DNA from: Burkholderiales bacterium | GTDB taxonomy: Bacteria; Pseudomonadota; Gammaproteobacteria; Burkholderiales; Burkholderiaceae_C | DNA: 12,237 nucleotides | Assembly: GCA_025354615.1 (NCBI GenBank) | Contig: JANXMO010000553.1 | Coordinates: 1-12,237 of the forward strand | Direction of reading: 5' to 3' | Part shown: positions 1 to 5,798 of the stretch, in pieces | How the letters are laid out: the number at the start of each line of letters is the position of its first letter | How positions within the stretch are numbered: position 1 is the first letter of the stretch | Notes under the pieces: model-generated | The model's database searches: none | What the model was told of the DNA's origin: nothing | What the model saw: only the letters and a program-made list of their open reading frames with translations | Translations under genes and position numbers: made by a program

Positions 1-3000
1 GCCGGCCAGGCCGCGGCAGGCGCCGCAAAACGTCTGGCCCGCCTGCGCACCCGTGTTATCACACCGACGTTGGCGTCTGTTGGACCCTCTGCAAGCACGG
101 CCGCGGAGCCGGCACCAGCACCGGCGCCAACCCGTCCTGCCGCAAGCCTTGCTGCAGTGAACCAACCACCGATCAACGGCCTGCGTTCGATGATCCACAA
201 CGCGTTCGGCGGCCAACCACAAGCTTATTTGTCCGAGCGCTTGTTGGAGCAGGAGATCGGGCGCAGCTTCAAACCGCCAGCGGGGCCGTCGAGCGGGGCA
301 ACGGCCGACCCGGTGCCTCAGCGGCTGCTCATTCAAGCACTGGCTGCGGCCAGCGGCTCGGACGCCTCGCAGGCCACGGCAACCCTGGCAGCACTCCACT
401 CGCTTGACTTGGCGGGCGACATCCGCACTGCCGCGACGCAAGCTCTGCCCACGCCCTCCACTGCCGCGGCCTGGAAGCTGGCAACGGCATTGGCCGCACG
501 GCCTGGCGGCATGGCGGTACTGAATTCGGTGTTGAAAAACCCGGTGAAAGACAAAGCGCAGCAGGCAGACGTGGCCCTGGTGCTGGAAACACTGGTGCTG
601 TTGCGCGGGGAAAAGCAGCGGGCCTTGACGCCGGTACACCTGTTGCAAGATCCCGCTTTGCGCGGCAGTTGGGCCGGGATGGCCGCGGTTGGCGCCATCA
701 GACGCATGGCTGGCGGCGGTGAACCTGCGGCGGCCAAACAGCCAGCCGTGGTACCACCAGCTGCTGTCTCCCACCCGTTGCTCAACACAGTGGTGCAGGA
801 GGAACCAGCAATGGCCTCGCTGGTGGAAAGCCAGTTTGGTACGGTGGCGCAGGCAGGGCTGTCGAAAATGCGGCTGTCGCGGGCGCTGCAGCAATGGCGC
901 GGCGCAGTGACCGCGGCACCGCCGATGGCCTTGCCCGGCCTGGCGCCCACACTGCTGGTGCAAGCGCTGGCCAGCGCCACCGGTAGCCATGCCGCAGCAG
1001 CCGTGGAGGCGCTGGCTGCGCTGCGCCAGCTCGATCCCTCCGAAGCCCTGGCCGCAGCGTGGCGCAACCGCCTGGCACCAGCACCCACAGCCCCTGCGGC
1101 GCAAACGGCAGCCTGGACAGTGGCGGCGGAACTGGCCACCACGCCCAGCGGCATGGAAGTGCTGCAGTCGGTGGTGGCAAGACCCGTAGCGCCTCAACAC
1201 CGTGAAGACGTCGCCTTGCTGTTGAAAGCCTTGCGCGCGCTGGGCAGCGGCCTGTCGCCCGAAACCGTGTTGCGCAACGCTGATTTGAAGGATGACATCG
1301 CGGCGCAAGCCGTGGCCTGCGTCGCCGCCCGGCTGGCCGACCGGCCCAACGAGGCACACGTGTACCGCTGGGCACTGGGCGCCGTTGGCAACGACTTGTA
1401 CAAGCGGGAGGCTGGCTCCGATTGGGCCTTCATCGAAAAACGCATCCGGAAATGGGGCGTGTGGATCGACCGCGCTGAAGGAAACGACGGCAAAGTGCGC
1501 AATGCATTGATCAACAAATCGGCTTTCCGTGCGCTCAGCATGGGAATTCAGCAGGTGGAACGCGGGCCGGTATCGCGCCATACAGCGGCTTATGAAAAAG
1601 CCTTGCGCAGCACTGCGCAAGCTTTGCAGACGCCGCTTTTGACGTTGGCGCCGCTGTTACGCCTGACCGGTAGCGCCGGCAGGGAAGGCGCTGAAGTGCC
1701 GCCCGATCTGCTCAAGGCAGTGGTGCTGGAGCATTGCCTGGCGCTGCCACCGACGGTGTCGATGGATCGCTACGCCCTTGCCGATGCGGCGCTTGAAGAT
1801 CTTCAAGCGCGGCTAAACGTCCACTTGACCTCCGCTGCAACACCGGATGGCGCCGTGCCGCTGCAGCCGCTGTTGCCACAAATTCAAGCCCTGGCGGGGG
1901 CGCAGATGAACTTCGAAATACTGAGCCAGTGGGTGGACGCAGCAGAACTTTCCCTTTCACGCCGTCCCGCTGTGCCGGCACCGCGCGAATCAGCGTTGAC
2001 CGAGGCCAGCACCTCACTGCAGCCAGCTGTCGCTGCAAGCCCCACCGAGCAACCAGACGCATCGATCCAACAAGCCCGCGCCGGATTGCAAACCGCTTTT
2101 GAAGAGGCTTATGGCCGCGATACCAGAATGCCAACAGTCACCCGTGAGGCATTGCGGGCTTTGCTGCATGACATCGTGGCCAATATTGAAGGCTCGTCAC
2201 GCCTGCGGCTGGCCAGCGGGGGGGTTGCCGGCCTCAGCTTGCGGCAGTTGACGGCCGCCCTTTCGGCGCTGGCAACAGGCGCCACCGTACGGGTTCGCCT
2301 GGACCTGAAATTACAGGGCGGTCGGCAAGCCATTTTTGAAATCGCCATGCCGCCTTACGACATGGAAATCGTGATGGCCACGCAGCAACAGGTGGCACAC
2401 CAGACGGGCGTCGGCGGCTCGGCCGGGCCGGAAATCGAAGGCGTGCTGGGAATAGGCCCCAACATCGACGCCGTCTTGCATGCCAAGGAAAACGCCAGCT
2501 GGACCGGCATTTCAATACGCTTGCCGCGCGTGGGCCGCCCGATGCCCGAGTTGCGCGCCGAATTCTCGAAGCTGGTCGACCGGTTGATCGACGGCACGGC
2601 GCGCGGTGGCGCGGGAGAGCAGGATTCACTGCTCAAGGCGCTGCTGCAGGAGTTCCCCAAGCTGACCGTCAATGTCATCGACAGCGCAGGTGATAGCCGC
2701 CGCCGCCGCGGCGCTTCTGCAGAAGTGGGAGCGTTCGCCAACGCCGGGTTCGTTCGCGGCACGGCGGCAGCCGGTGTCAGCGTCGAAAAACACCGCAAGG
2801 TGACCCGGCATTACCGCGATGCCATCGGCCGCATGCGCGTCGAGCGCGAAATCATTGGCGCCACGACCCGCGTCAACGTGGGCGCTCGCGCAAGTGCCGG
2901 TGCCAACACCAGCACTGCGCCCGTCTCGTTCAGTTCGGGCAACACCAGCCTGGGCTTTGGCATCAGTGCCGACGTCGTGTCTAAAGGCAGCTACAACCGG

Positions 3001-3507
3001 GCTGAAGCCGTCTACGAACTCGGGCGGCTGCACCCGATTTCTTTCCGGGAGGTCGAAGAACACAGCCTCAATGTGTTTCTCGAAAAGGTGGACGGGGAAA
3101 AAGAGGAATGGGTGCAGGCCCGGGTGGCCGCGCCCGGCAAGGTGCGCAATGCCGATGAGGAGCGCGTCAACCTGGAAGCGTTTTTGAACAAGTTGCGGGA
3201 ACAAGCCCAGCCCACACACACCTATGGAATACGCAGAACCATCAAACCGGATGCGGCGGCGCGCATCGACGCCTACCGCAGCGTTTCGATCCTGGCCGAG
3301 CGAAGCGGCCAGGACACGGCAGCGTTTGAAGCCGCCATCAATGCCATCTGGTCGGATGCTGAATCGTTTCAGCCCTATTCGTTGCGCTCTTACGAGCGGG
3401 CCGCCGACCAAAAGACGACAGGTTTGCCACCCATTATTCTTGGGCACTTGAACGGCTTTCACAGCGCTGAGGCCAACCACATCAACAACCGCTTTGATGT
3501 TGCATGA
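1..3507 (+). CDS. Large Ala-rich repeat protein, effector-like, 5' truncated by window
   Basis: I do not recognise this gene. The frame is open from base 1 to the TGA at 3505-3507 (1168 codons). The only candidate start near the left edge is a TTG at 70 with no Shine-Dalgarno sequence, and there is no in-frame ATG before it, so the true start probably lies outside the window. In window codons, 24-50 are Ala/Pro/Ser-rich. Codons about 109-240 and 318-449 are two diverged copies of a helical repeat. Codons about 450-740 are mixed helical. Codons about 760-900 hold alternating beta and helical segments. After an Arg run at about 900-903 comes a Gly/Ala/Ser/Val-rich beta-like stretch to about 1010, then a charged helical tail. 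There is no visible catalytic motif, transmembrane helix or export signal in the visible part. Large repeat-rich proteins of this build occur among type III effectors of Ralstonia and Acidovorax (for example AWR/RipA or AvrE types), but that link is only an inference from style. Codon use resembles the neighbours. Confidence 0.75.
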   Translation, partial: AGQAAAGAAKRLARLRTRVITPTLASVGPSASTAAEPAPAPAPTRPAASLAAVNQPPINGLRSMIHNAFGGQPQAYLSERLLEQEIGRSFKPPAGPSSGATADPVPQRLLIQALAAASGSDASQATATLAALHSLDLAGDIRTAATQALPTPSTAAAWKLATALAARPGGMAVLNSVLKNPVKDKAQQADVALVLETLVLLRGEKQRALTPVHLLQDPALRGSWAGMAAVGAIRRMAGGGEPAAAKQPAVVPPAAVSHPLLNTVVQEEPAMASLVESQFGTVAQAGLSKMRLSRALQQWRGAVTAAPPMALPGLAPTLLVQALASATGSHAAAAVEALAALRQLDPSEALAAAWRNRLAPAPTAPAAQTAAWTVAAELATTPSGMEVLQSVVARPVAPQHREDVALLLKALRALGSGLSPETVLRNADLKDDIAAQAVACVAARLADRPNEAHVYRWALGAVGNDLYKREAGSDWAFIEKRIRKWGVWIDRAEGNDGKVRNALINKSAFRALSMGIQQVERGPVSRHTAAYEKALRSTAQALQTPLLTLAPLLRLTGSAGREGAEVPPDLLKAVVLEHCLALPPTVSMDRYALADAALEDLQARLNVHLTSAATPDGAVPLQPLLPQIQALAGAQMNFEILSQWVDAAELSLSRRPAVPAPRESALTEASTSLQPAVAASPTEQPDASIQQARAGLQTAFEEAYGRDTRMPTVTREALRALLHDIVANIEGSSRLRLASGGVAGLSLRQLTAALSALATGATVRVRLDLKLQGGRQAIFEIAMPPYDMEIVMATQQQVAHQTGVGGSAGPEIEGVLGIGPNIDAVLHAKENASWTGISIRLPRVGRPMPELRAEFSKLVDRLIDGTARGGAGEQDSLLKALLQEFPKLTVNVIDSAGDSRRRRGASAEVGAFANAGFVRGTAAAGVSVEKHRKVTRHYRDAIGRMRVEREIIGATTRVNVGARASAGANTSTAPVSFSSGNTSLGFGISADVVSKGSYNRAEAVYELGRLHPISFREVEEHSLNVFLEKVDGEKEEWVQARVAAPGKVRNADEERVNLEAFLNKLREQAQPTHTYGIRRTIKPDAAARIDAYRSVSILAERSGQDTAAFEAAINAIWSDAESFQPYSLRSYERAADQKTTGLPPIILGHLNGFHSAEANHINNRFDVA
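325..1347 (+). repeat. Two diverged protein-level tandem repeats inside the large gene
   Basis: Copy 1 (325-720) and copy 2 (952-1347) start 627 bases apart and each spans about 132 codons. They share, in the same order, LL-x-QALA-x-A-x-GS, then AAL followed by LD, then AAW with LA-x2-P-x-GM-x-VL-x-SV-x3-PV, then DVAL-x-L, then an L-x-P segment, and an Ala-rich helix with a final Arg. Small gaps are needed in two places. The region before each copy (about 169-324 and 775-951) may also be related, but this is less clear. The DNA itself is too diverged for recent duplication. The copies look like helical-bundle modules. Confidence 0.65.
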
Positions 3508-3574: not shown

Positions 3575-3643
3575 ACGCTGCGCCCCGGTTCACCGCTGCG
3601 GTTAGGACAATGAACCTTTTGTCCCTTTCGTCCCACCCACGCC

Positions 3644-4213
3644 ATGACCCAGCCGATCGACGATGTGCAGGCCCGCGACTTGTTGCAACGGTGCGCACAA
3701 AAAGACGAACAAGCGCTCAAGGACTTGCATGCCCTCATGGCACGAAGAATTTATGCGTTTGCGTTTCATCGGTTTCGTGACGAAGTGACAGCGGAGACCG
3801 TTGTGGTGGATACCCTTTTTGAAGTGTGGAACAGCGCGGCCAAATTTCGTGGCGAATCGCAGGCGAGCACCTGGATTCTCGGTATCGCCCGCTACAAGCT
3901 GCTGGCGCTGTGGCGCCAGCGGTCGCCAAGCCACGATGACATCGACGACCACGCGGAAACGCTGCCCAGTGACCTGGACGATGCCGAAACCACGTTGAGC
4001 CGCTGGCAGCAAAGCCGCCTGGTGCAGCAGTGCATGAGCGGCCTCAGCGCGGCGCACCGCGAGTGCCTGCAACTGGTGTATTTCGAAGGGCTGGGGCTGG
4101 CGGAAGTGGCCGCCATTCAGCAAGTGCCCGAGAACACCGTCAAGACGCGCATGTTCCACGCACGGAAAAACATGCGCAGCTGTGTCGAACAAAACGGCGG
4201 GAGTCAACCATGA
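3644..4213 (+). CDS. ECF-family RNA polymerase sigma factor
   Basis: This 189-residue protein has the size and two-domain layout of group 4 (ECF) sigma factors, which direct RNA polymerase to a small stress regulon. Region 2 spans about residues 25-93. Its region 2.4 part, FRGESQASTWILGIARYKLL (68-87), is typical. A variable acidic linker with no sigma region 3 follows (about 95-118). Region 4 (about 125-178) carries the helix-turn-helix LAEVAAIQQVPENTVKTRMF and a basic end. The ATG at 3644 is the first start after an in-frame TGA at 3611, but it has no Shine-Dalgarno sequence; the leader is pyrimidine-rich. The stop overlaps the start of the anti-sigma gene by ATGA (4210-4213), so the pair is probably translationally coupled. 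The family is certain, but the target promoters and the exact ECF subgroup are unknown. Confidence 0.95.
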   Translation: MTQPIDDVQARDLLQRCAQKDEQALKDLHALMARRIYAFAFHRFRDEVTAETVVVDTLFEVWNSAAKFRGESQASTWILGIARYKLLALWRQRSPSHDDIDDHAETLPSDLDDAETTLSRWQQSRLVQQCMSGLSAAHRECLQLVYFEGLGLAEVAAIQQVPENTVKTRMFHARKNMRSCVEQNGGSQP

Positions 4214-4881
4214 GCATCGAACCTTTGACCGCGCAGGCCGCGCAGCTGCTGGAAGAGCGCTTGCCCTGGTATGTCAATGGCACGCTGCCGGAAGCAGAGC
4301 GGGCCTGGGTTGAACAGTTGTTGGCGACTTCCCCTGCCGCAGCGCAGCGCCTGCAACGCGAGCAAGCCTTGCTGCGTGCCGTGCCGGAAATGCTCCAACC
4401 GGCTGCGCAAGACGTCGGGCTGGACCGGTTGATGGCGCAGGTTCGCCAGCAGTCCCACCCGGCCGCAGCGGCCACGCAGCGGCCACCATCACGGGCCTCT
4501 TGGTGGCAACGCGCATCGGCTGGCCTGCAGTCGCTGCTGGCCGGCCCGGCCTGGGCCACGGGACTGGCCGCCGTGGTCGTCGTTCAATCGGGCGTGATGG
4601 GTTGGCTGGCTCTTTCCGACGCGCCCGACAGCGGTTTCCGCTCGATCGGCGTTACCGAAGTGCGCACCCTGCGGGTCAGCTTCAAACCGGCGTTTTCAGA
4701 AGCCCAAATCCGCGCGGCGCTGGTTCGCGCCAGCGCCCGCATCGTTGGCGGGCCGACCCAGGTGGGCGAGTACTGGGTGGCTTCCGACTTGTTGTCGCTG
4801 GACGAAATACGGGCTTCGCTCAGCCAGTCAGGCGTGGTGGCGACGATGGAAACCGACCTGGCCGGGCCAAGGGGGCAATGA
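4210..4881 (+). CDS. Single-pass membrane anti-sigma factor with I9-like periplasmic domain
   Basis: Starting at the ATG that overlaps the sigma stop, this is 223 residues. Residues 1-80 form a helical cytoplasmic domain with the LPWYVNGTLPEAER pattern common in ECF anti-sigma factors. There is no Cys in the protein and no H-x3-C-x2-C zinc site, so it is a zinc-less type. A Trp/Arg-rich segment (about 98-112) precedes one transmembrane helix at about 114-135. The C-terminal part (about 150-215) is periplasmic if the topology is N-in. Its pattern V-x-FKP-x-FSEAQIRAAL, then RIVGGP, then G-x-Y-x-V resembles subtilisin propeptide (inhibitor I9-like) domains. It likely holds the upstream sigma factor at the membrane and releases it on an envelope signal. 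Its stop overlaps the next start (ATGA at 4878-4881). The anti-sigma role is firm from context and domain style; the I9 resemblance is judged by eye. Confidence 0.85.
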   Translation: MSIEPLTAQAAQLLEERLPWYVNGTLPEAERAWVEQLLATSPAAAQRLQREQALLRAVPEMLQPAAQDVGLDRLMAQVRQQSHPAAAATQRPPSRASWWQRASAGLQSLLAGPAWATGLAAVVVVQSGVMGWLALSDAPDSGFRSIGVTEVRTLRVSFKPAFSEAQIRAALVRASARIVGGPTQVGEYWVASDLLSLDEIRASLSQSGVVATMETDLAGPRGQ

Positions 4882-5798
4882 TGCTGACGACACGTTCAGG
4901 GACCGCCGCCGTGCCGCTGGCCGCCGAACCCGTTCAGCGCCGCCGTGTGTTGGCGCTGCTGGGCGCCGCGGCCTGCTCAGCCGCGCTCAGGCCGGCGGTG
5001 GCAGAAACCGCGGCCGCACCCAAGGTGGCGTGGATCATCGGCAACACGCGCTATAGCGGGGCTCCGCTGGCCAATGCCGGCAACGATGCCCGGCTGGTGG
5101 CGGCAGCCGTCCGCGAACTGGGCTTCAACGTCACGCTGCAGCTCGATGCCAGCCATGCCGCCATGTTGGAGACGGCCCGCAGCTGGCTGGCCGCGGCCGC
5201 GGCGGCTTCCGTGCGCATGGTTTATTTTGCCGGCCATGGCGCCCAATACCGCGGCCGCAACTTCCTGCTTCCGGTTGACGCGCGGCTGCGTTCCGAAGAC
5301 GATTTGCCGGCCAGCGCCTTCAGCGTCAACGACCTCGTCGACCGGCTGTCGCGCTTCGAGGCCGGTGTCAATGTGGTGGTGCTCGACGCCTGCCGCAGCA
5401 TTGCGGCACTGTCGTCACCGCCCGGTCTGCGCATGCGGGGACCGTCGGCTGCATTCGGATTGCCGGGCTTGTCGCCGACTCTTACTCCGCGCGGCACCAT
5501 CGTGGCTTATTCGACGTCACCGGGCGCCGTGGCGGCTGACAATCCGCAGGCGGCCAACAGCACCTACACGCGGCATTTAGTGGCCCAACTGCGCACGCCT
5601 GGGCTGCCTATTGAAGCGGTTTTCAAACGCACGCGTGCCGCGGTTTTGCAGGAATCGAACGGCACCCAGGTGCCATGGGAAAGCAGCAGCCTGATCAGCG
5701 AGTTCTGCTTTGCGCCCAGCGCTGCCGGTGTGTGCAGCGCCAGTGGTGAACCCGTCCGGCCTTCGCTGGCGGGCAAAGCCCATTCAACAGTAGGCTGA
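4878..5798 (+). CDS. Exported caspase-like (C14) cysteine peptidase
   Basis: This caspase-fold (peptidase family C14) protein has 306 residues from the ATG at 4878, or 305 from the next ATG at 4881. The 4878 start overlaps the anti-sigma stop. The catalytic dyad is intact: His120 in YFAGHGAQ and Cys172 in VVVLDACRS. The N-terminal strand AWIIGNTRYSGAPLANAGND (51-70) and the YSTSPG loop (211-216) are typical of bacterial caspase homologues. A basic segment QRRRVLALLG (20-29), then a hydrophobic core and a likely cut after AVA (about residue 42), form a signal peptide. The Arg pair before the core makes Tat export possible. Such enzymes usually cut after basic residues, but the substrate here is unknown. 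Overlapping coupling with the sigma and anti-sigma genes suggests it works in, or is controlled by, that circuit. The C-terminal 35 residues have no recognised domain. Confidence 0.92.
   Translation: MMLTTRSGTAAVPLAAEPVQRRRVLALLGAAACSAALRPAVAETAAAPKVAWIIGNTRYSGAPLANAGNDARLVAAAVRELGFNVTLQLDASHAAMLETARSWLAAAAAASVRMVYFAGHGAQYRGRNFLLPVDARLRSEDDLPASAFSVNDLVDRLSRFEAGVNVVVLDACRSIAALSSPPGLRMRGPSAAFGLPGLSPTLTPRGTIVAYSTSPGAVAADNPQAANSTYTRHLVAQLRTPGLPIEAVFKRTRAAVLQESNGTQVPWESSSLISEFCFAPSAAGVCSASGEPVRPSLAGKAHSTVG

Follow-up and report, generated by a model that had tools for sequence, protein, structure and literature searches.

The window analysed here is a stretch of 12,237 nucleotides, contig JANXMO010000553.1 (our C168) of the Burkholderiales bacterium assembly GCA_025354615.1, a genome of 2.8 Mb in 697 contigs that is 80.85% complete. 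It carries three consecutive genes for an extracytoplasmic function (ECF) sigma factor, a membrane anti-sigma factor and an exported caspase-like peptidase of family C14. The genes overlap at ATGA junctions (4210-4213 and 4878-4881, with an extra in-frame ATG at 4881). An earlier note on this DNA had described this triplet and its two overlaps, and both are confirmed by the open reading frame calls and Pfam. The peptidase position downstream of the anti-sigma gene, taken as the next two genes, is called the slot below. The features of the triplet are as follows.

3611-3639, forward strand: putative ECF promoter TGAACC-N17-CACCCA, read by eye, 4 nt before the sigma factor ATG and suggestive of autoregulation
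3644-4213, forward strand: ECF sigma factor, 189 amino acids (Pfam Sigma70_r2 and Sigma70_r4_2 over cut-off)
4210-4881, forward strand: membrane anti-sigma factor, 223 amino acids, lacking the HxxxCxxC motif (weak zf-HC2 and anti-sigma models; AlphaFold2)
4210-4452, forward strand: anti-sigma residues 1-81, four predicted helices, probable cytoplasmic sigma-binding part (AlphaFold2 model)
4546-4614, forward strand: anti-sigma residues 113-135, predicted transmembrane helix (model helix; hydrophobicity by eye)
4660-4863, forward strand: anti-sigma residues 151-218, predicted periplasmic beta-alpha-beta-beta-alpha-beta domain, prodomain-like
4864-4878, forward strand: anti-sigma C-terminal tail G-P-R-G-Q (GPR in 29 of 34 window-type anti-sigma factors)
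4878-5798, forward strand: exported C14 caspase-like peptidase, 306 amino acids (Pfam C14; top structural matches MALT1)
4878-5003, forward strand: caspase signal sequence, RRR at residues 21-23, AVA at 40-42 (from the sequence; cut site by eye)
5235-5237, forward strand: catalytic His120, invariant in 38 aligned caspases; GHG in 48 of 48
5391-5393, forward strand: catalytic Cys172 (DACR), invariant in 38 aligned caspases; DACR in 47 of 48, DSCH in one

The sigma factor and the anti-sigma factor

The sigma factor matches Sigma70_r2 (33.0 bits) and Sigma70_r4_2 (45.1 bits) and has no region 3, as is typical of ECF sigma factors. The closest relative found is at locus L183 (69-70% identity).

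The anti-sigma factor is recognised less readily. Its only Pfam match is zf-HC2, at 16.5 bits against a cut-off of 22.2, and the NCBIfam anti-sigma models score far under their cut-offs. Zinc is reported not to be obligatory in class I anti-sigma factors (ASDI, PMC7406223). The window protein is a candidate member of this class: four N-terminal helices are predicted and its gene adjoins that of an ECF sigma factor; the HxxxCxxC motif is absent and the profile scores are under cut-off. The AlphaFold2 model (predicted local distance difference test score 84.6) contains a helix at residues 113-135 followed by a folded C-terminal domain, in agreement with the periplasmic domain proposed in the earlier note. 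We infer that the protein spans the membrane once and retains the sigma factor in the cytoplasm.

Subtilisin prosegments are at or near the top of a structure search with the sensor domain, whose fold is a common one, and structures of the inhibitor POIA1 are also among the matches. Comparison with related proteins suggests kinship of the outer domain with domains that inhibit proteases. The subtilase prodomain family Fervidolysin_NPro (PF22148) matches 22 of 56 anti-sigma factors linked to S8 peptidases (described below); among 46 linked to caspases it matches one, weakly (E 0.087). The PF22148 profile gave no match to the window anti-sigma factor at E values up to 1, and plain membership of that family was rejected for it. 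Where present, 25 named loci were excluded from the hhalign sets.

An anti-sigma C-terminus of the form P-(x)-R/K plus at most two residues is found in 30 of 48 caspase-linked and 7 of 61 S8-linked proteins, counts that are inflated by phylogeny. The GPR codons vary among the four loci of the window branch, so it is unlikely that the tail merely encodes a ribosome-binding site for the caspase gene. We also considered the arginine of the tail as a universal cleavage site; this was rejected, as the tail is limited to 30 of 48 proteins (29 of 34 window-type ones) and a cut there would free only two residues.

The exported caspase

The third protein scores 113.9 bits with Peptidase_C14 (PF00656), for which the cut-off is 21.4. 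Together with the caspase fold and the His/Cys dyad, which the earlier note had called intact, this places it in family C14, with peptidase activity predicted. It is a stand-alone C14 domain: the CHAT score (23.5 bits) is under the cut-off of 24 and there are no TPR repeats. The N-terminus resembles a twin-arginine signal by eye, and in 41 of 48 slot caspases an RR pair occurs among the first 35 residues, in keeping with the signal peptide proposed earlier. A C-terminal cysteine pair is present in 40 of 48.

MALT1 is the best match by both sequence and fold, and the first 28 structural matches are all MALT1 (3v4o_A, target template modelling score 0.79). All 38 aligned caspases share Asp70, Asp170 and Asp221. 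Asp70 and Asp170 align with MALT1 Asp365 and Asp462; Asp221, outside the printed alignments, presumably corresponds to MALT1 Glu500. Asp365 and Asp462 are described as binding the P1 arginine (PMC4357240). Because the conserved aspartates match this pocket, the window caspase is predicted to be specific for arginine.

Recurrence of the unit and exchange of the peptidase

Relatives of the triplet were sought in 150 genomes of the family. Wider sampling of the order (61 of 399 genomes) was combined with 80 named loci, selected as the best among 216; the named-locus scan favours relatives of the window, so the sample is biased. Among the 150 family genomes 26 have a match to the anti-sigma factor and 52 to the caspase, and the unit is annotated in 11, including the source genome. 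In two of these 11 the contig truncates the unit, stopping before the sigma gene (L100) or within the caspase gene (L101). Gene calls at the compared loci are from our own simple caller, which miscalled L193 (a second name for L094) and, probably, L200.

The earlier note had proposed a search of genomes for the triplet: a C14 gene occupies the slot in 48 of 130 distinct anti-sigma loci. A subtilase of family S8 occupies it in 61, and 21 have neither or are undecided, by our own gene calls and profiles. The peptidase labels are mostly from these profiles, with S8 confirmed by Pfam in eight loci. The 130 omit six duplicates and the loci lacking an anti-sigma call (L151, L174, L024, L195, L205, L223, L248 and L255). 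Across 20 hand-chosen 7.5-kb control regions around other ECF sigma matches, with a sigma gene called in 16, there was no C14 or S8 gene. The caspase version is present in the cultured genera Azohydromonas, Variovorax and Rhizobacter and the S8 version in Dyella. The record that carries the L196 caspase triplet is labelled a plasmid, pVarWS11_2 of Variovorax sp. WS11.

The earlier note had taken the gene overlaps to indicate fixed stoichiometry. This is not borne out, since within the caspase loci the sigma and anti-sigma genes overlap in 28 of 46 cases and the anti-sigma and caspase genes in only 13 of 48. Close spacing is more general; by our own calls no more than 60 nt separate the first pair in 33 of 46 cases and the second pair in 43 of 48.

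A tree of the sigma factors was built from 109 rows, with eight divergent rows and rows lacking a usable sigma call omitted; it is unrooted and better resolved than an earlier tree of 56 rows. All but one of the 46 caspase rows lie in one moderately supported branch of 51 rows (SH-aLRT, the Shimodaira-Hasegawa-like approximate likelihood ratio test, 80), together with one S8 row and five others; this branch is placed among S8 rows. The 46th is a Nitrospira locus inside an S8 branch, and its caspase is a different one of 738 amino acids. The slot labels change 5 times on the tree against 35.2 times with shuffled labels, and the starred branches force at least two changes. By this comparison of sequences the slot has seen one or more exchanges of unrelated peptidases, with the sigma and anti-sigma factors retained, as the clustering of the labels indicates. 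We dropped any ordering of S8 and C14 as the older state, since the tree is unrooted and the key branch has an SH-aLRT value of 80.

Three Xanthomonadales-type loci in the caspase branch (L192, L226 and L253) have neither C14 nor S8 in the next two genes; L192 and L226 have OmpA and autotransporter genes in place of the slot peptidase. The earlier note had held that homologues occurring mostly without the caspase gene would speak against a coupling. In the wide family they do (61 S8 against 48 C14 loci), and where the caspase is absent the other peptidase usually fills the slot; within the caspase branch the homologues do not occur mostly without the caspase.

Putative promoter and regulon

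Counted up to 100 nt from the sigma start, the pattern TGAACC-N17-SACNNA is present at 9 of 46 caspase loci and 4 of 57 S8 loci, for which shuffling gave means of 0.005 and 0.01; this enrichment is partly circular because these regions also supplied the motif, by eye. In ten genomes the pattern occurs 136 times and its reversed form 50 times; for the source genome alone the numbers are only 9 and 6.

PF00656 has 58 matches in these ten genomes, ten of which are the slot caspases. Seven of the other 48 have a same-strand motif within 2.6 kb upstream (0.16 expected) and none has one on the opposite strand. Same-strand motifs 3' of non-slot caspase genes number five, and four of these are by our own reading the sigma factor's own promoter. 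The seven motif-preceded caspases are confined to four of the ten genomes (the source genome, G542, G545 and G546) and about four gene groups, which makes their Poisson value too strong.

In the source genome the motif lies 108 nt before an autotransporter-domain gene that is directly followed by a Sel1/C14 gene encoding 599 amino acids; this segment (L291 4238-7407, contig C156) is a candidate regulon member. Three Rhodocyclaceae genomes encode caspases of 760-778 amino acids that are 38-40% identical to the 599-residue protein over some 370 residues and share a second, N-terminal stretch with it. OmpA-family genes are also present downstream of the motif.

Genomic context

The surroundings of the two versions differ. 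OmpA matches occur at 24 of 48 caspase loci and matches to the type VI secretion system (T6SS) protein TssM at 10 of 48; neither occurs at the 61 S8 loci or the 20 controls. A recurrent cluster consists of OmpA, a protein with repeats, a lipoprotein and a further family of small proteins; 34 of 48 caspase loci and none of the 61 S8 loci have one or more of its members. Examples of this cluster, comprising a secreted short-repeat protein, a DUF4384 lipoprotein, a small beta-rich protein and OmpA, are L092 5145-9703, L230 150-5096, L099 10421-15721 and L187 8613-12504. Similarity to Gcw_chp (PF09694) is found at 18 of 61 S8 and none of 48 caspase loci, with Pfam matches beside the S8 version in two (L103 and L105).

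The flanking repeat protein and lipoprotein matched no solved structure. Their likeness to curli components was rejected, because searches with CsgG (PF03783) and curlin (PF07012) were blank at the caspase loci of six genomes. A type III secretion system (T3SS) secretin query matched 23 of 48 caspase loci; this link was dropped, as among the matches listed outside L183 only the C-terminal query positions 617-748 aligned, and the matches inspected there were lipoprotein-like genes.

In L095 (9299-10564) and L096 (9453-10784) the second gene after the anti-sigma gene encodes a fusion of a C14 domain with TssJ (SciN), the T6SS lipoprotein, and these fusions adjoin DotU and IcmF genes. In L183 (1789-8936) copies of the motif stand before the OmpA/autotransporter side and before a second operon. 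This operon follows the triplet and encodes a lytic transglycosylase, an FHIPEP export protein and a secretin. FHIPEP-type genes are present on three contigs of the source genome, with type III neighbours on two of them (by eye).

Within the window the triplet is preceded by a 1168-codon frame (1-3507) that is open at the first base of the contig and shows partial similarity to XopZ, a family of type III effectors (103.4 bits, far under the cut-off of 1300). Downstream are genes for a DUF883 protein, an M14 peptidase, a small protein, YajC/SecD/SecF (by eye) and a DUF1631 protein.

Proposed mechanism and alternatives

The earlier note reasoned that a caspase sharing a compartment with the anti-sigma sensor either cleaves the anti-sigma factor or is the output of the circuit. 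The shared compartment stands as a prediction, with the caspase and the folded anti-sigma domain both placed in the periplasm. Direct contact has gained an independent argument from the prodomain likeness and from the S8 peptidases at 61 of 130 loci. The output role gains from the putative motif before other, larger caspase genes.

Because the outer part of the inhibitor seems related to protease-inhibiting domains, direct action of the exported protease on the switch is likely. Our leading proposal, tentative and somewhat short of an even chance, is an envelope-sensing ECF switch with a prodomain-like sensor and an exported peptidase, in which the caspase signals to the anti-sigma factor with feedback. 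The anti-sigma factor would hold the sigma factor in the cytoplasm and expose its sensor in the periplasm, where the caspase would dock on the prodomain-like domain and the C-terminal tail. Once active or displaced, the caspase would break or destabilise the anti-sigma factor. Besides its own operon, the freed sigma factor would then transcribe additional caspase genes and outer-membrane genes, providing both positive feedback and output.

A more elaborate form is doubtful. In this two-tier circuit the sensor would be a retained former subtilase prodomain whose partner was swapped for a non-homologous, arginine-specific initiator caspase that now unlocks it. The sigma factor would then switch on its own operon together with larger secreted caspases; these would be the executioners, with ties to genes of the outer membrane and of injection systems.

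The caspase could instead be output only, a secreted effector co-transcribed with its regulator that acts on other envelope or secreted proteins and leaves the anti-sigma factor alone, with the signal arising elsewhere. The motif before larger Sel1-type caspases and OmpA genes is what a caspase regulon would show, and the genes beyond the operon vary as well (T6SS at some loci, T3SS genes in L183, an autotransporter in the source genome). This reading leaves both the S8 peptidases in the same slot and the prodomain-like sensor unexplained, and we regard it as rather unlikely.

The direction could also be reversed, with the prodomain-like part inhibiting, chaperoning or gauging the peptidase. 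Free anti-sigma factor would keep the peptidase inactive, the signal would be substrate load or peptidase excess and the feedback would be negative. Subtilase prodomains are described as folding aids and tight inhibitors, some of them stand-alone (PMC6993865), and the P-(x)-R tail could sit product-like in an arginine-specific site. However, the peptidase at the caspase loci is not a subtilase, so prodomain chemistry is not directly transferable, and the S8 neighbours carry a prodomain-type N-terminal region of their own (by eye). We consider this improbable. A chance neighbourhood, in which a widespread C14 gene merely lies behind the pair, draws on the frequency of C14 genes here and the loosely kept overlaps and is highly improbable given the recurrence against the controls and the clustering of labels on the tree.

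If the leading proposal is correct, exported bacterial caspases, whose roles are mostly unknown, gain a concrete job in transcriptional signalling. A protease prodomain would be a type of anti-sigma sensor not found in the literature searched, and the slot would show, as an example from nature, how two protease folds of unrelated origin can serve a single regulatory socket. Both versions occur in cultured genera and the circuit is therefore directly testable.

Comparison with known systems

Regulation of the RseA/DegS and RsiW type involves a membrane anti-sigma factor with a periplasmic part and protease-dependent release. The window system is alike in its membrane anti-sigma factor and differs in its protease, which is encoded in the operon and is C14 or S8 rather than PrsW or an S1C protease with a PDZ domain such as the site-1 protease DegS. 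Regulated anti-sigma proteolysis of both types is named in PMC10028731.

In group ECF54, regulation of a sigma factor that has no anti-sigma factor is proposed to occur through carboxypeptidase, subtilase and CHAT neighbours (PMC8999054). The S8 and caspase-like peptidases adjoining an ECF sigma gene are alike; the window triplet includes an anti-sigma factor and so falls outside this group. The stand-alone propeptide SUB1-ProM and I9-type inhibitors such as POIA1 are prodomain-like domains acting in trans (PMC6993865), and the window domain differs in being the sensor end of an anti-sigma factor.

The MALT1 paracaspase (C14B) resembles the window caspase in sequence and fold; the latter is bacterial and exported and has no death or Ig domains. 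Prokaryotic caspase homologues, including orthocaspases, share the C14 domain, and some are reported to have an N-terminal helix or signal and sigma factors among their operon partners (PMC3501461). The available sections of that source do not describe the sigma/anti-sigma/caspase unit. Our literature search, which left most subscription papers outside, likewise found no description of the unit or of a prodomain sensor; an earlier account of the S8/C14 neighbourhood, for example in ECF classifications, is possible. We regard the triplet as a variant of protease-controlled sigma switches not previously described in the literature searched.

The earlier note knew of no characterised system of exactly this form. 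Strict novelty of sigma control by a caspase-type protease fails because Craspase (Csx29/Csx30/CASP-sigma) exerts such control in type III-E systems of clustered regularly interspaced short palindromic repeats (CRISPR). No Cas gene was found among the eight window proteins scanned, in which no search aimed at CRISPR was made. Craspase is the nearest functional analogue, in that a caspase-clan protease is reported to cut the inhibitor by which an ECF-type sigma factor is held (PMC10028731). Csx29 is described there as a cytoplasmic TPR-CHAT protein switched by Cas7-11 under the guidance of CRISPR RNA, whereas the window caspase is not a TPR-CHAT protease coupled to Cas7-11, being a stand-alone exported C14 domain encoded beside a membrane anti-sigma factor.
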